Assembly: GCF_028692895.1 (NCBI RefSeq)
Contig: NZ_JAQUWN010000001.1
Location: forward strand, 1 to 64,000
Origin: Pseudodesulfovibrio sp.
Lineage (GTDB): Bacteria; Desulfobacterota; Desulfovibrionia; Desulfovibrionales; Desulfovibrionaceae
DNA length: 64,000 bases
Reading direction: 5' to 3'
In this document: one piece after another, positions 10,989 through 30,033 of the stretch
How positions within the stretch are numbered: the first letter of the stretch is position 1
Layout: every line of letters starts with the position of its first letter
Notes under the pieces: generated by a model
Told to the model about the DNA's origin: nothing
Database searches by the model: none
The model's input: only the letters and a program-made list of their open reading frames with translations
Position numbers and translations under genes: made by a program

Positions 10989-12320
10989 TCACGACATGCG
11001 ACATTTTTGCTTCAGGGTTTTCAACAGTTGTTTCAATTCCATGTCATCTTCCTGTAATTGATCGATTTTTTTTACGGAGTACAGGACCGTGGAGTGGTCC
11101 TTGCCCCCAAAGGCGCGGCCCAGGGAGGGGTAGGAGGTGTTCAGCATGGTCCGGCACAGGAACATGGCCACCTGCCTGGCCTGGGCGATGTTCTGGTGCC
11201 GCTTGGCCCCGGTCAGGTCCTTGACGTGGATGTTGAAATGCTCGCTGACCACGCTCATGATCTTCTTGGGCGTCAGGTCGTCCGTGGCCTTCTCCTCGGT
11301 GTTGGAGAGGATGTGCTGGAAGTCCTTCTGGGTCAGGTCCTTCTTGACCAGCTCCTTGAAGGCGAAGAGCTTGAGCAGGATGCCCTGGAGATAGCGGAAG
11401 TCCGTGAACCGCTGGGCCAGGGTCAGGATCTGCTCCTTGGACAGGTTGAGGCGCTTGAGTCGGCACTGGCGCTGGATGTATCCGACCCGAATCTCCAGGT
11501 CCGGCTCCTTGAGGGTGACGATGAGCCCCCAGCCCAGCCGGGATTGCAGGCTCTCGTCCAGGAAGTCGTAGCTCGTCACCTTGTCGCGGCAGGCGATGAC
11601 CATCTGCTTCTTGTTGTCGTAGAAGTGGTTGAAGATGTTCACCAGCTCCTGCTGGAAATGCGGATATTCCCGGATCTTCTGGAAGTCGTCCAGGAACAGG
11701 AATTCATACTCGAACAGGTGGTTGCGGGCCCGGAACGGGTCGCCCCGGAACTGGATGGTGTAGAGCGAGTTGAGCTCGTCCATGGTGCCCATGAAAATGG
11801 CCGAGTAGTCGTGCTTCTTGCTGATCTCGTTGCCCACGGACTTGATGAGGTGGGTCTTGCCCGAACCGCCCGGCCCGCAGATGATGAACGGGTTGAACAG
11901 CGAGCCCGACTGCTTGGAGACCTCCTTGGCCGAGGCGATGGGGAAGTAGTTCTTCTTGTTGATGAGGAAGGTGTCGAAGGTGAATTCCTGGCCGAAGGGG
12001 AAGTCGATGCGCTTGACCAGCTCCACGGCCTGGACGCCCTTGGACCGGTCCACCGCGCCGTTGTCCCGGTAGCTGACCACGTATCCCGCGCCCAGGTACA
12101 TGTTGAGCTGCGCCTCGAAGCGGTCCTGGATTTCGCTTTCGAACCACTTGGCGAAAAAAGCATGGGGAAAACCCACGGTGACCCGCTTGTTTTCCTCGTC
12201 GTATTCGAACTGCAACGGGTCGAACCAGCGCTTGAGATCGTCGTCCGAATTGGTCTGCAGAAGATGGGTGCGAAGACTTTGTTTCACGCTGAACCGAACC
12301 GTTGTACCGTGGTTTTCCAA
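10989..12320 (-). CDS. dnaA: Chromosomal replication initiator DnaA
   Basis: This AAA+ ATPase binds DnaA boxes and opens the replication origin. Domain III has Walker A GPGGSGKTHLI and Walker B FLFLDDFQ. Domain IV has the DNA-recognition signature GGKDHSTVLYSVKKID near the C terminus. At 443 residues the linker between domains I and III is short. The longest frame starts at a TTG (12318-12320) with no convincing ribosome binding site. A GTG at 12287, giving VKQSLRTHLL, aligns better with how related DnaA proteins begin and is a serious alternative start. It is separated from dnaN by 142 bases. I see no DnaA-box cluster on either side. Confidence 0.95.
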   Translation of the reverse strand: MENHGTTVRFSVKQSLRTHLLQTNSDDDLKRWFDPLQFEYDEENKRVTVGFPHAFFAKWFESEIQDRFEAQLNMYLGAGYVVSYRDNGAVDRSKGVQAVELVKRIDFPFGQEFTFDTFLINKKNYFPIASAKEVSKQSGSLFNPFIICGPGGSGKTHLIKSVGNEISKKHDYSAIFMGTMDELNSLYTIQFRGDPFRARNHLFEYEFLFLDDFQKIREYPHFQQELVNIFNHFYDNKKQMVIACRDKVTSYDFLDESLQSRLGWGLIVTLKEPDLEIRVGYIQRQCRLKRLNLSKEQILTLAQRFTDFRYLQGILLKLFAFKELVKKDLTQKDFQHILSNTEEKATDDLTPKKIMSVVSEHFNIHVKDLTGAKRHQNIAQARQVAMFLCRTMLNTSYPSLGRAFGGKDHSTVLYSVKKIDQLQEDDMELKQLLKTLKQKCRMS

Positions 12321-21745: not shown

Positions 21746-22840
21746 TTACCTTATCAGCATCGCGTCTCCGTAGGAGAAGAAGCGAAACCCGTTTTCGAGC
21801 GCGTAGTTGTAGGCCGATAGGACCCTCGCCCTTCCGGCCAAGGCCGCAATCATAATGATGAGGGATGACTCTGGCAAATGAAAGTTTGTGAGCATTGCGT
21901 CCACCACCTTGAAGGTGTAGCCCGGCTTGATGAAGATGTCTGTTTCACCTGAAAATTCGGCTATTTCGCCGCAGGCCCGGTACATGCCCTCCAGGGTGCG
22001 CGCGCTGGTGGTGCCGATGGCGACCACGGGGCGGCCCTCCGCCTTGGCCCGGTTCACCGCGTCGACGGTTTCACGTGAAACCTCGATGTACTCGGCGTGC
22101 ATCCGGTGGTTGCGGATGTCCGGCTCGCGCACCGGGCTGAAGGTGCCGTAGCCCACGTAGAGGGTGACCTCGGCCCAGGTGAACCCGCGTCCGGCCAGCC
22201 CGGCCCGCAGCTCGGGCGTGAAGTGCAGCCCGGCCGTGGGCGCGGCCACCGAGCCGGTCTTGGCCTCGCTCGAATAGGTGGTCTGGTAGCGCTCGCGGTC
22301 CGCCGCCGAGTCGGGACGCCGGATGTAGGGCGGCAGGGGAAGGTGGCCCATGGCCTGGAAATGGCCGGTCAGGTCCCCGCGCCAGCACAGGCGGACACGC
22401 CAGCGGCCGAAGGGCGAGGGCTCCTCGGCGAGGAGGAACAGGTCGTCGCTGATGGTCACCCGGCTGCCGGGCTTGGGCGACTTGGAGGCGCGCAGCAGCC
22501 CCTCGGCCGGGGCCGCGAGCCAGCCGTCGCCCAGGTCGGGGGCGGGGGCGGGCGCGAGCAGGGGCAGGGGCGTGAGCAGCAGGAACTCCACCCGCCCGCC
22601 CGTGGGCTTCATCCCGAAGATGCGGGCCGGGATGACGCGGGAGTTGTTGGCCACAAGCAGCGCGCCCTCCGGCAGATAGTCGGCCAGTTCGGTGAACCGG
22701 GCCGGGGTGAGCGTGTCCGCCGCCCGGTCGAGCACGAGCAGGCGCGAGCCGTCGCGCCGGTCGGCGGGTTGCTGGGCTATGCGATCCTCGGGCAGGTCGT
22801 AGTCGTAGCTCGCCAGCCGGAAGTCCTGGGGTATTTCCAT
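21746..22840 (-). CDS. queA: S-adenosylmethionine:tRNA ribosyltransferase-isomerase
   Basis: This 364-residue enzyme of queuosine biosynthesis transfers the ribosyl part of S-adenosylmethionine to preQ1-modified tRNA. Signature segments are the N-terminal YDLPEDRIAQQP, RLLVLDR, LLVANNSRVIPARIFGMK, AAPTAGLHFTP, EVTLYVGYGTFSPV, and the C-terminal NFHLPESSLIIMIAALAG and GFRFFSYGDAMLI. The start at 22840 (MEIPQDFRL) is preferred over an upstream in-frame ATG. The gene contains a perfect internal parS core at 22067-22082. Confidence 0.95.
   Translation of the reverse strand: MEIPQDFRLASYDYDLPEDRIAQQPADRRDGSRLLVLDRAADTLTPARFTELADYLPEGALLVANNSRVIPARIFGMKPTGGRVEFLLLTPLPLLAPAPAPDLGDGWLAAPAEGLLRASKSPKPGSRVTISDDLFLLAEEPSPFGRWRVRLCWRGDLTGHFQAMGHLPLPPYIRRPDSAADRERYQTTYSSEAKTGSVAAPTAGLHFTPELRAGLAGRGFTWAEVTLYVGYGTFSPVREPDIRNHRMHAEYIEVSRETVDAVNRAKAEGRPVVAIGTTSARTLEGMYRACGEIAEFSGETDIFIKPGYTFKVVDAMLTNFHLPESSLIIMIAALAGRARVLSAYNYALENGFRFFSYGDAMLIR
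22067..22082. promoter_or_regulatory. parS: parS site inside queA
   Basis: GGTTTCACGTGAAACC contains the 14-base palindrome GTTTCACGTGAAAC that is the ParB-binding core of bacterial parS. It lies in coding sequence about 5.6 kb from the two parS sites upstream of parA. A weaker match (TGTTTCACCTGAAAAT) lies about 110 bases away at 21941-21956. Confidence 0.85.
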
Positions 22841-22981: not shown

Positions 22982-22999
22982 TGGTATTTCATTATACCA
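22982..22999. promoter_or_regulatory. Palindrome overlapping the start of the HTH gene
   Basis: TGGTAT-N6-ATACCA is a perfect dyad with 6-base arms, and its last base is the A of the ATG. A TTGCCA element at 22963-22968 could be a -35 box. The arrangement fits autorepression by the encoded HTH protein. Confidence 0.45.
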
Positions 23000-23673
23000 T
23001 GAATTGGCTTTCCGTGGCTGAGATAGCCAAGCTTACCCGCATCCCCGCGCCGACGGCCCGTCGGTACGCTTCCCTGTTCAAGGACTTCCTGAACGGACGC
23101 AAGATGGGCCGGATCACCAAGTACCCCGAGGACAGCCTCGTGGTTTTCGAACGGATTTCGCGAATGTACGGCGAGGGCAAGGTCACGGCGGAGATCGAGG
23201 ACGGCCTCAAGCGCGAGTTCACGCGCACCATCGAGGTGGAGCGCGAGGCCGAGCCGCCCGTGCGCGGGGAGATGTTCGCCGAGCTGGCGGGCGTCTTCAA
23301 CGGGGTCATGGGCAAGGTGGCGTCCTGCATGGAGGTCATCGCCAACCAGAAGTCGGTCATCGAGCGGCAGCAGGACGACATTCAGAAGCTCAAGACCGCC
23401 TTTGTCCTGCTCGCCCGCAGCCAGAAGAAGATGAAACAGTTGCCCGGACCGTCCGACGTCCTGCCCGAGGAGATCCTCCGCCAGACCCAGGCCCTGGAGC
23501 AGAAGGACGCGGAGATCGAGGAGATGGCGCTGAAGCTCAGTTTCGACACCTCGGACATCAAGGCCAAGATGCAGATCCTGGAGTCGGAGCTCATCCGGCT
23601 GCGCAAGGACCGCCGGGAGATGGAGAAGTACCTCCAGGACAAGATCGACCGCCTCAAGGACGCCGCCTCCTGA
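22999..23673 (+). CDS. MerR-type HTH protein with long C-terminal coiled coil
   Basis: This 224-residue protein has an N-terminal winged-helix segment, WLSVAEIAKLTRIPAPTARRY (residues about 3-23) followed by FLNGRKMGRITKYPEDSL. This is the pattern of MerR/excisionase-like DNA-binding domains. From about residue 100 the sequence is charged and heptad-like (NQKSVIERQQDDIQKLKTAF, and later RLRKDRREMEKYLQDKIDRL), predicting a coiled coil for self-association. No ligand-binding domain is apparent. No ribosome binding site is obvious before the ATG, where a palindrome sits instead. The function is unknown; a regulator or nucleoid-associated protein is plausible. Confidence 0.75.
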   Translation: MNWLSVAEIAKLTRIPAPTARRYASLFKDFLNGRKMGRITKYPEDSLVVFERISRMYGEGKVTAEIEDGLKREFTRTIEVEREAEPPVRGEMFAELAGVFNGVMGKVASCMEVIANQKSVIERQQDDIQKLKTAFVLLARSQKKMKQLPGPSDVLPEEILRQTQALEQKDAEIEEMALKLSFDTSDIKAKMQILESELIRLRKDRREMEKYLQDKIDRLKDAAS

Positions 23674-24217: not shown

Positions 24218-25441
24218 ATGCAGCCCCATTACCGCTTCGCCGGATTCCTGGGCAAGCGCGTCCATCTCGGCGTCACCGGTTCCATCGCCGCCTACAAGGC
24301 GCTCGACCTCCTGCGCTCCCTGCAGGAGGCGGGTTGCCTTGTTTCCGCCACACTGACCGACGGGGCCGCCGAGTTCGTCCGGCCCCTGTCCTTCGAGGCC
24401 CTGGGGGCCTCGCCGGTGTACGGCTCCATGTTCGAAGGCTCGCCCTCCGGTTCCGCCTTCGGCCACCTGGAGCCGGGCCAGGCCGCCCACGCCATGGTCA
24501 TCGCCCCGGCCACGGCCGCGACCATCGCGCGCCTCGCCTTCGGACTGGCCGACGACATGCTCTCCTGCCAGGCCCTGGCCTTCCCGGGGCCCAAGATAGT
24601 TGCCCCGGCCATGAACCCGCGCATGTGGGAGGCCCCGGCCACCCGGCGCAACTGGGAGATGCTCGGCGAACTCGGCTACATCCGCGTCCGGCCCTGGAGC
24701 GGGCATGTGGCCTGCGGCGACACCGGCGAGGGCCGCCTGGCTCCGGTGGAGGAGATTTTCGCGTCCGTGCTCCGAGCGCTGGCGCCTCAGGACCTGGCCG
24801 GCCGGAAGGTCCTGGTCACCCTCGGCCCCACGCGCGAGCCGTGGGACGCGGTCCGGTTCTGGTCCAACCCGTCCTCCGGGCTCATGGGCGCGTGCCTGGC
24901 CATGGCCGCACACCTGCGCGGGGCCGACGTCACCGTTGTGGCCGGGCCCACCGTCCTGACCTTTCCCGAGGCCGTCCGCGTGGTCCCCGTGACCACGGCC
25001 CGGCAGATGTTCGAAGTGGCCACGGACCTGTGGCCGTCCATGGATGTTGCCTGCTGCACCGCCGCCGTGGCCGACTTCCGGCCCGTGCCCTTTGGCGAGA
25101 CCAAGTTCAAGAAGGCCTCCGGCGCGGGGCAGGGCATTACCGTGGAGTTCACGCCCAACCCGGACATCCTGCGCACGCTCGGCGAGGCCAAGCGGGATGG
25201 ACAGCGTCTCATCGGCTTCGCCGCCGAGACCGGCGACCTCAAGGCCGAGGCCGGGCGAAAGCTGCAAAGCAAGCGGTTGGACATCATCGCGGCCAACGAC
25301 ATTTCCAAGGCGGGAAGCGGGTTCGCCAGCGCGACCAACGAGATGTACGTGCTCGACGCCGCCGGGCGCAGGGAGACCTGGCCCCAACTCGACAAGACCG
25401 AAGTGGCCTGGCGTTTATGGGATCACCTTCTGCTCGACTGA
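24218..25441 (+). CDS. coaBC: Bifunctional phosphopantothenoylcysteine decarboxylase / phosphopantothenate-cysteine ligase
   Basis: This 407-residue cytosolic enzyme joins cysteine to 4'-phosphopantothenate and decarboxylates the product to 4'-phosphopantetheine in coenzyme A synthesis. The CoaC flavoprotein half comes first: HLGVTGSIAAYKALDLLRSL, MVIAPATAATIARLAFGLAD, and VAPAMNPRMWEAPATRRN with a catalytic-type Asn. The CoaB half follows: VLVTLGPTREPWDAVRFWSN, SSGLMGACLA, AAVADFRP, and KASGAGQGITVEF. The length is normal. The next gene's start overlaps its last 25 bases. Confidence 0.95.
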   Translation: MQPHYRFAGFLGKRVHLGVTGSIAAYKALDLLRSLQEAGCLVSATLTDGAAEFVRPLSFEALGASPVYGSMFEGSPSGSAFGHLEPGQAAHAMVIAPATAATIARLAFGLADDMLSCQALAFPGPKIVAPAMNPRMWEAPATRRNWEMLGELGYIRVRPWSGHVACGDTGEGRLAPVEEIFASVLRALAPQDLAGRKVLVTLGPTREPWDAVRFWSNPSSGLMGACLAMAAHLRGADVTVVAGPTVLTFPEAVRVVPVTTARQMFEVATDLWPSMDVACCTAAVADFRPVPFGETKFKKASGAGQGITVEFTPNPDILRTLGEAKRDGQRLIGFAAETGDLKAEAGRKLQSKRLDIIAANDISKAGSGFASATNEMYVLDAAGRRETWPQLDKTEVAWRLWDHLLLD

Positions 25442-26160
25442 ACGTGCCGGAGCATCTGCGTCCGTGGCTGGAATCCGGGCTGGAGCACGTCTTCCATCCC
25501 GGCGGCCCCGTCGCGGCCGAGGCCGTGGCGGCGACGCCCGCTCAGGCCCTGCCTCTGACCCCGCAGCCGCCTGCACAGTCCAATCACTGTCCGGTTCCGG
25601 CGCAGACGTCTTCCGTCCCGGAAAAAGCTGCGCGTCAGGACAGGGCGGTGGGGGCGTCCCGTCCGACGCCCGAGGCGTTTCGCGAACCGACAGGCAGTTC
25701 GTCCGCGTCTGCGGGACCGGCCTTCCCCGAGCCGTGGGCCTCATACCTGAAGCTGGTCGCCCCCGGTCACAAGATGGTCTGGACCTACATGGAGCTCGGC
25801 CTGGACCTGGGCGGGCAAAAGGACGAACGGCGGCGCGCCGTTGTGGCCAACCTGATCCGGCACCTCCGGCTGCCGCCCCGGCCCGTGGCCTTCTGGCCCG
25901 TGGCCGCGTTGCAGTCCGGCCGCCTCGTCCCCGACCGGGAACTTTTCTGGCGCGGCTGGCGGCTCTGGAAAACCCCGCATGTTGTTTGCTTCGGCCGGGA
26001 CGCCCTCCGGGTCATCCTGCCGGAAGCCGACCCAGCCCGCTCCATGCACATGCTCCGCGACGTCATGGTCCACGTCCTGCCTTCCATGGGCGAGCTCGTC
26101 GCCATGCTCCCGCATGAACAGCAACTGGCCGTCAGCGCCTTGGCGAACCTCCGGTTCTAG
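25417..26160 (+). CDS. Hypothetical protein translationally coupled to coaBC
   Basis: The predicted protein has 247 residues if it starts at the ATG within the coaBC 3' end (25417). A GTG at 25444 is an alternative that would remove the overlap. It has a short N-terminal segment, a Pro/Ala/Ser-rich linker (residues about 30-105) and a conserved-looking C-terminal domain. That domain contains LVAPGHKMVWTYMELGLDLG, RHLRLPPRPVAFWPVAAL, FWRGWRLWKTPHVVCFGRDA and VHVLPSMGELVAML. I do not recognise the domain. The spacing implies co-expression with coaBC, but no link to coenzyme A chemistry can be shown. Confidence 0.6.
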   Translation: MGSPSARLNVPEHLRPWLESGLEHVFHPGGPVAAEAVAATPAQALPLTPQPPAQSNHCPVPAQTSSVPEKAARQDRAVGASRPTPEAFREPTGSSSASAGPAFPEPWASYLKLVAPGHKMVWTYMELGLDLGGQKDERRRAVVANLIRHLRLPPRPVAFWPVAALQSGRLVPDRELFWRGWRLWKTPHVVCFGRDALRVILPEADPARSMHMLRDVMVHVLPSMGELVAMLPHEQQLAVSALANLRF

Positions 26161-27669: not shown

Positions 27670-27685
27670 TGTTTCACGTGAAACA
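27670..27685. promoter_or_regulatory. parS: parS site 1 upstream of parA
   Basis: TGTTTCACGTGAAACA is a perfect 16-base match to the bacterial parS consensus bound by ParB. It lies 71 bases before the parA start. Confidence 0.95.
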
Positions 27686-27704: not shown

Positions 27705-27720
27705 TGTTTCACGTGAAACG
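27705..27720. promoter_or_regulatory. parS: parS site 2 upstream of parA
   Basis: TGTTTCACGTGAAACG matches the parS consensus at 15 of 16 positions, with its centre 35 bases from that of site 1. Tandem sites here may nucleate the ParB complex and could also affect parA expression. Confidence 0.93.
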
Positions 27721-27755: not shown

Positions 27756-28529
27756 GTGGCGAGAAAAATCGTTGTGGCGAATCAGAAGGGCGGCGTCGGC
27801 AAGACGACCACGGCCGTGAACCTGGCCGCGTCCCTGGCTGTGATGGAAAAAAAGGTGCTTCTGGTGGACTGCGACCCCCAAGGCAACGCCTCCAGCGGGC
27901 TCGGTTTCTACCCCGGCGACAAGCGGGAGAATGTCTACACTGTGCTTTTCGAGCCCAAGAACATCCGGCGGGCCATCTACGAGACCGATGTGCCGTACCT
28001 CTCCATCCTGCCGGGAACGCAGGATCTGGTCGGCGCGGAGATCGAGCTGGTGGATAAATTGGGGCGGGAGTATTACCTGCGGGACTTGCTGAGCATGGCG
28101 GACGAGGATTTTGACTACATCCTCATCGACTGCCCGCCGTCTCTGGGGCTGCTCACGGTCAACGCCCTGTGCGCGGCCACCGAGCTCTTGGTGCCCCTAC
28201 AGTGCGAGTATTACGCTTTGGAGGGCATTGCGCAACTGCTCATGACCTACGAGCTCGTGCGCAAGCGGTTGAATAGCGATCTGGACATCCTGGGCGTGGT
28301 CCTGACCATGTACGACTCGCGAAACCGGCTCTCCTGGCAGGTCAAGAACGAGGTGCGCAAGGCGTTCCCGCAGCACCTGTTCGAGACGATCATCCCGCGC
28401 AACGTGCGTCTGTCCGAGGCCCCGAGCTTCGGCAAGCCCGTGATCAACTATGATATCAAGTCGCGCGGCGCGGAGGCCTATCTGGCCCTGGCCCAGGAAG
28501 TGGCGAAAAGCACGACCGCCAGAGGTTAG
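27756..28529 (+). CDS. parA: Chromosome partitioning ATPase ParA (Soj)
   Basis: This 257-residue deviant Walker-type ATPase works with ParB-parS complexes to segregate chromosome origins. Motifs are KGGVGKTTTAVNLAASLA with the signature lysine (residues about 10-27), DCDPQGNASSGLG, the Walker B region YILIDCPPSLGLLTVNA and the C-terminal SFGKPVINYD. It starts at a GTG with an AGCGAGGA site upstream. Size and motifs match chromosomal ParA without an N-terminal HTH. Unlike the common parAB operon, a gene on the opposite strand separates it from parB. Confidence 0.96.
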   Translation: MARKIVVANQKGGVGKTTTAVNLAASLAVMEKKVLLVDCDPQGNASSGLGFYPGDKRENVYTVLFEPKNIRRAIYETDVPYLSILPGTQDLVGAEIELVDKLGREYYLRDLLSMADEDFDYILIDCPPSLGLLTVNALCAATELLVPLQCEYYALEGIAQLLMTYELVRKRLNSDLDILGVVLTMYDSRNRLSWQVKNEVRKAFPQHLFETIIPRNVRLSEAPSFGKPVINYDIKSRGAEAYLALAQEVAKSTTARG

Positions 28530-29115: not shown

Positions 29116-30033
29116 ATGTCATTACCCAGCAAGGGGCTTGGCCGTGGGCTGGACGCGCTGCTCGGCGGCGTCCGCGAGGACGAACGGAAGACCTCGGATT
29201 CCTCCGAGGTCAGGCGGATTTCGCTCTCGGCCATTACGCCCAACCCGCATCAGCCGCGCCGGGAATTCTCCCGGGAAGGGCTGGACGACCTGGCCGCCTC
29301 CATCAAGGTGCGCGGCGTCCTGCAGCCAGTGCTTGTCCGGCCGCTTGGCGACAGTCGCTACGAGCTGGTGGCGGGCGAACGACGTCTGCGCGCTTCCAGG
29401 CTGGCCGGGCTGGACGAGATTCCGGCCCTGGTCCGGGAGATGACGGACCAGGAGAGCCTGGCCATCGCCCTGATCGAGAATTTGCAGCGCGAGGACCTGA
29501 ACGCGGTGGAGGAGGCGCTCGGCTACCAACAGTTGCAGCAGCAGTTCGGCCTGAGCCAGGAGGAGCTGGCCCGCCAGGTGGGCAAGAGCCGGTCCGCCGT
29601 GGCCAACTCGCTTCGCCTGCTCAACCTGCCGGACGAGGTCAGGGCCGACATCCAGCAGGGAACCCTGAGCGCGGGCCACGGCCGGGCGATCATGGCCGTG
29701 ACCGAGGCCGACGCCCAGGGCGCGCTGCACCGCCGTATCGCCGAAAACGGACTGACCGTGCGCCAAGCCGAGGCGCAGGCCTCGTTCTGGAAGGAACATG
29801 GCCGGTTGCCCGGGGCCGAGGAAATCGGCCAGGCCCCGCGTCCCGCCCCAGTCCGGGAAGAGGCCGCTCCCACTGATCCCCGCCTGACCAATCTCCAGGA
29901 GGCGCTCGGCGAGTTGCTGAATGTTAAGGTAAGGATTGCGGGCACCACGGATAAGGGCAAGATTACCGTCAGTTACAAGAACGAAAGTGATTTGCGGATT
30001 CTTGCGGAAAAGCTCGGGGCGGAATTCGTCTGA
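29116..30033 (+). CDS. parB: Chromosome partitioning protein ParB (Spo0J)
   Basis: This 305-residue CTP-dependent DNA clamp loads at parS and slides along the chromosome. It begins with the ParA-stimulating segment KGLGRGLDALLGG, then SAITPNPHQPRREFSREGL and the CTP-binding GERRLRASRLAGL motif. ENLQREDLNAVEEALGYQQL and the HTH segment LSQEELARQVGKSRSAVANS follow. A C-terminal dimerisation domain ends at GAEFV. An AAGGAGAGG site precedes the start. Its targets are visible at 27670, 27705 and 22067. Confidence 0.96.
   Translation: MSLPSKGLGRGLDALLGGVREDERKTSDSSEVRRISLSAITPNPHQPRREFSREGLDDLAASIKVRGVLQPVLVRPLGDSRYELVAGERRLRASRLAGLDEIPALVREMTDQESLAIALIENLQREDLNAVEEALGYQQLQQQFGLSQEELARQVGKSRSAVANSLRLLNLPDEVRADIQQGTLSAGHGRAIMAVTEADAQGALHRRIAENGLTVRQAEAQASFWKEHGRLPGAEEIGQAPRPAPVREEAAPTDPRLTNLQEALGELLNVKVRIAGTTDKGKITVSYKNESDLRILAEKLGAEFV

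Follow-up and report, generated by a model that had tools for sequence, protein, structure and literature searches.

Why should a perfect copy of the parS core lie inside queA, within the coding sequence of a gene 5.6 kb from the parS pair that precedes parA, and 5.7 kb from the parA start? The copy may be a working auxiliary site for ParB, or it may be a coincidence of codons; if it is a working site, it may have arisen once or several times. We addressed these questions in a stretch of 64,000 nucleotides from Pseudodesulfovibrio sp. (the window), in the rest of this genome (G000) and in relatives from the same genus, family and order.

The queA palindrome and parS-like satellites around parAB

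The features of the window on which the question turns are as follows.

21746-22840, minus strand: queA (S-adenosylmethionine:tRNA ribosyltransferase-isomerase), the host gene; Pfam Queuosine_synth PF02547, 3e-118
21942-21955, unstranded: GTTTCACCTGAAAA, with two mismatches to parS, where QueA has its conserved GETD motif; selection for this match is improbable
22068-22081, unstranded: perfect parS core GTTTCACGTGAAAC in queA, 14/14 bases of the palindromic core
27671-27684, unstranded: parA-proximal parS 1, perfect 16-mer TGTTTCACGTGAAACA
27706-27719, unstranded: parA-proximal parS 2, TGTTTCACGTGAAACG
27756-28529, plus strand: parA
29116-30033, plus strand: parB, with ParB_N and HTH_ParB domains

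The first-pass annotation had reported a perfect 14-base palindrome within queA and two sites before parA, and we found all three in place, each as a perfect copy. The queA copy is coding on the minus strand, where its codons GTT TCA CGT GAA AC(C) read V-S-R-E-T. One more base on each side makes it a 16-base palindrome (22067-22082, GGTTTCACGTGAAACC) with G..C as the outer pair. The parA-proximal sites usually have T..A, from which one of the two in this genome also departs, on one side; T..A is common among parS and was not taken as defining. Seven parS matches with three or fewer mismatches occur in the window, whereas 100 shuffles averaged 1.42 and never came to seven. The genome as a whole (3.69 Mb, 132 contigs) has three sites with at most one mismatch, all of them perfect and all within 5.7 kb. 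Judged by sequence, the queA 14-mer is a parS, and a chance occurrence is very unlikely.

A degenerate match had also been reported about 110 bases away. It does exist, with two mismatches, at 112 bases from the perfect site, a spacing that we still find mildly surprising. Genome-wide, four sites have exactly two mismatches versus five matches (two or fewer mismatches) for a reversed control pattern, so the two-mismatch class is not above chance in number. The 21942 match is probably a by-product of the conserved GETD motif of QueA and not of selection for ParB binding. As a second selected parS we rejected it for lack of support.

parS-like satellites cluster around parAB across the genus and the family. 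In the 36 genus genomes (~134 Mb), the perfect 14-mer occurs twice in 33 genomes, once in two (G003 and G011) and three times only here; all copies except the one in queA lie 50-105 bases before a parA match, leaving the queA copy as the only perfect one away from parA-proximal sites. With one mismatch allowed, the same genomes have 84 sites, 70 of them parA-proximal and 14 elsewhere. Six of these 14 (in G000, G003, G010, G011, G017 and G028) fall within the 487,662 bases around parAB and queA, where ~0.03 would be expected from nine reversed-pattern matches over the same 36 genomes; the other eight lie outside. The 79 further family loci, each covering up to 20 kb around parB, hold 133 sites with at most one mismatch, 107 just upstream of parB and 26 outside that zone. 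For 100 palindromes of the same composition, the number corresponding to these 26 has a mean of 0.11 and a maximum of 2; sites are often common by descent, and the 26 satellites are not 26 independent events. Taken together, 31 of 117 parB loci (36 genus, 2 g28 and 79 family) have a satellite outside the primary zone and 12 have one inside queA, a gene that not every locus includes (it lies outside the locus stretch in 7 of the 36 genus loci).

The primary sites vary as well. The site upstream of parB shows a lineage-wide one-base departure, GTTTCATGTGAAAC, in 13 of 13 g40 loci, and in six loci of g3, g15 and g36 it reads GTTTCCCGTGAAAC or its complement, one base off the palindrome (the variant loci are L183, L184, L215, L216 and L218-L232). 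Further one-mismatch parS are found 25-47 kb from the primary sites in G015, G016, G020 and g38 genomes; the sequence is GTTTCGCGTGAAAC in G016 and in the four g38 genomes with both sites on one contig. Four genomes (G089, G221, G236 and G243) have 9-15 sites each with at most one mismatch, where most of the 247 family genomes have 0-4.

Conservation of the queA register

Conservation of the palindrome inside a gene had been expected to constrain the codons of queA, which a comparison of synonymous sites among relatives should reveal. Genus-wide, it does not. In the 36 genus queA genes, the site shows less codon homozygosity than expected: the V, P/S and T columns rank 278, 277 and 249 of 292, and the R and E columns are too variable to score. 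The same profile picks up a block of invariant codons near the queA 3' end and is therefore able to see such signals. The site is absent from 33 of the 36 genomes, where this register has 5-8 mismatches and drifts freely. Synonymous conservation across the genus was accordingly rejected as proof of function, the site columns being among the least conserved of queA.

The expectation does hold in a subset of relatives. We aligned 81 queA genes (36 from the genus, 3 from g28 and 42 from family loci, with truncated G078 and G081 dropped; the other family loci do not include queA). The same register reads GTTCCACGTGAAAC in G010, G028, G047, G087 and G109 and is perfect in this genome; the remaining 75 genes have 5-10 mismatches. 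G010 and G028 are members of the genus (GTT CCA CGT GAA AC(A), one mismatch from parS), and the other three are the genomes by which the sister genus g13 is sampled, all of which carry the site. An exact context pattern, which would miss sites with other mismatches, finds the same six genomes and no others in 288 family and 348 order genomes. Strict identity at the codon level sets the five GTTCCAC carriers apart: they agree over seven codons, GAA GTT CCA CGT GAA ACA GCC, the longest identical run in their queA genes (the next longest is 4), and elsewhere in the gene, 24.6% (0.246) of the residues invariant across the five are encoded by one and the same codon.

Other genes and positions host satellites too. 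In genus g29, queA contains GCTTCACGTGAAAC in another frame and place (L-H-V-K-P, ~300 bases from the start). This site is present in six of the 11 loci fetched (G094, G151, G171, G192, G198 and G210), absent from the other five, and its carriers form a clade with support 1.00. Codon conservation of the g29 site was discarded as evidence, the four-codon run being matched by three other runs of equal length. In G003, G037, G070 and G079 a satellite lies in the gene that follows coaBC (the homologue of 25420-26157). A tentative and rather doubtful generalization is that queA is a recurrent favoured satellite host in the family, with two positions in three genera. Selection would then favour a second loading point on the side of queA, ~5-7 kb away from the parA-proximal site, QueA loops would tolerate the residues, and the satellite would turn over while the parA-proximal site stayed fixed.

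One origin or several

We consider it most probable (roughly 0.7), from the sequences compared, that the queA site is a real auxiliary parS that had a single origin before the two genera split, was repeatedly lost and has been retained here. One origin with at least five losses is favoured over independent gains by nearly three to one. The 14-mer of this genome is one base away from that of the five other carriers and at least five bases away from the other 75 queA genes, its nearest relatives being 6-8 bases off. In a tree built from seven proteins, QueA not among them, g13 is sister to the genus (support 1.00) and G010/G028 stand beside G017/G027 (support 1.00). The same tree groups G000 with G029, G001, G002 and G012 (support 0.84, and 0.99 in a smaller genus tree); one of the losses depends on this placement of G000 at support 0.84. 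In 26 of the 33 non-carriers, queA and parA are found together on a single stretch and in their usual order; between the two genes of these genomes, a median of 554 registers (range 10-820) resemble parS no less closely than this one does. Repeated accidental arrival at this register is therefore unlikely.

Under a single origin, GTTCCACGTGAAAC would already have been present in queA of the common ancestor of the genus and its sister genus, and most lineages would have lost the site through redundancy. In this genome it would have been retained, and a single C-to-T substitution, replacing Pro by Ser in QueA, would have made the palindrome perfect. We infer the single origin as well as this direction of change. 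In other species a single parS is reported to be enough (PMC4368675; PMC7083940), so the queA site may be dispensable, which fits easy loss.

Exchange between the genera was also considered. Transfer of the whole queA gene was rejected because in the queA tree G010/G028 still group with G017/G027 (support 0.99); short gene conversion between genera may have taken place. Between the queA genes of G000 and G010 alone, 121 of 1067 14-base windows differ by at most one base, so this pair by itself proves little.

The strongest competitor of a single origin is a real parS gained three times independently in queA (in G000, in G010/G028 and in the sister genus), the loop tolerating V-P/S-R-E-T and a satellite being selected at about this distance. 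We hold this to be unlikely, if well short of negligible. Three gains without loss are slightly better in likelihood (lnL -13.8; a regime of rare gain and frequent loss reaches about -15.6) in a two-state presence/absence model that is blind to sequence, and the separate parS elsewhere in the g29 queA indicates that the gene is reused as a host. However, the genus non-carriers are 5-8 bases off, and with so many registers as close or closer in 26 of the 33, the same register would not be expected thrice; moreover, the five carriers agree both in their non-perfect variant and in their silent codons.

Far less probable, and in our estimation very unlikely, is that the V-S-R-E-T codons coincide with parS by chance and the palindrome has no ParB role. 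Val and Thr do stand at the segment ends in 36 of 36 genus QueA proteins, and the nearby degenerate match probably has a coding origin of such kind. Yet chance would also have to account for 26 satellites in the 79 family loci versus 0.11 expected, and for a perfect queA copy when no other perfect one lies off the parA-proximal sites in 36 genomes. Least probable of all is that the codons are conserved for a function of queA (translation, an RNA structure or the site of another protein) and that their likeness to parS is accidental. The coding sequence of queA does contain a further conserved signal, promoter-like and close to the 3' end, but the palindrome stretch drifts in the 33 genus genomes without parS, and in the five carriers it is the palindrome that the seven unchanged codons cover.

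The promoter-like stretch, TTGCCA-N17-TATGAT at 21849-21877 on the minus strand, lies inside the 3' end of queA and faces downstream ferredoxin/oxidoreductase genes. All 36 genus members share its codons CAT TTG CCA and ATT ATG, and the full motif is present in 27 of 36 genus genes and 33 of the 81 in the family set, versus 13 of 7200 synonymous resamplings.

Possible role, chromosomal setting and known systems

We infer ParB binding and a loading role for the queA site. At this site, ParB made from the neighbouring parB would be loaded as a clamp that depends on CTP and would then slide into the flanks, in line with reports of CTP-dependent escape of ParB from parS and of its sliding (PMC7053999, PMC8367383). 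The queA site would act as a second loading point, separated from the parA-proximal pair by ~5.6 kb and the intervening genes, and would widen or reinforce the ParB-covered zone. The earlier suggestion that it extends the ParB nucleation zone is plausible on this analysis. Sequence comparison matches the ParB of the window with Spo0J and ParB proteins of solved structure. By our mapping it has Arg and Gly at the equivalents of Caulobacter ParB positions 173 and 201, which are reported to go with parS binding specificity (PMC7383237). The half-sites of the variant common to the relatives, GTTCCAC and GTTTCAC, are described as heptamers preferred by Pseudomonas aeruginosa ParB (PMC10419367).

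The queA site should lie near the replication origin, as suggested by the sampled GC skew of one complete relative, G004. In 20 sampled stretches of that genome, the skew stays below zero up to 0.98 Mb and is above zero in most stretches between 1.12 and 2.74 Mb, with exceptions at 1.37, 2.34 and 3.70 Mb; a stretch at 585 kb (GC 0.11, probably largely masked) was set aside. Given this switch, the origin should lie near parAB, which is at 1.15 Mb in G004. Within the window itself no clear GC-skew switch was seen, and DnaA boxes gave one match versus 0.77 expected.

A second gene for a DnaA-like protein, scoring under the cut-off of the DnaA family, lies at 11004-12275 on the minus strand, ~15 kb from parA. 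At least two DnaA matches were found in each of the 17 genus genomes tested. The full DnaA is encoded elsewhere (C9 here), and in G004 it lies 1.5 Mb from parAB; the second DnaA copy of G035 is ~155 kb from parAB. The plus-strand gene adjoining queA (22999-23673) encodes a protein with, by eye, a helix-turn-helix-like start followed by a long helical, coiled-coil-like part. This protein has no Pfam match and is present in 28 of 28 other queA-containing genus loci at 65-81% identity.

The locus offers a natural case of a centromere-like site that overlaps a protein gene, with conservation at the codon level in some lineages and loss in others. The worth of an auxiliary parS can hence be asked of natural variation and not of engineered deletions alone. 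A scan for synonymous conservation confined to one genus can miss a site that turns over.

Bacillus subtilis has a parS inside spo0J, TGTTCCACGTGAAACA. This site is likewise intragenic and has the same GTTCCACGTGAAAC core as the five relatives, but its host is the ParB gene itself, whereas here the host is queA.

Nine of ten predicted parS of Pseudomonas aeruginosa are reported as most likely in genes (PMC4368675). As in that species, parS copies here stand in coding sequence beside intergenic ones. Unlike there, where most sites are genic, here there is one queA satellite, whose register recurs in a sister genus and which is absent from most of its own genus. In Corynebacterium glutamicum, parS1 lies in trpCF at the far end of the parS cluster and is described as loading ParB alone (PMC7083940). 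The queA site is similarly a single coding-sequence parS at the far end of its cluster; the C. glutamicum cluster has ten sites within 35 kb, and the present one three within 5.7 kb. Among the matches listed for intragenic or Desulfovibrio parS, the titles and opening lines of the abstracts report no parS in queA. Intragenic parS are already known (PMC4368675, PMC7083940), and extra sites are ordinary. What is unusual here is the patchy, codon-exact retention across two genera, together with the reuse of queA as a host.
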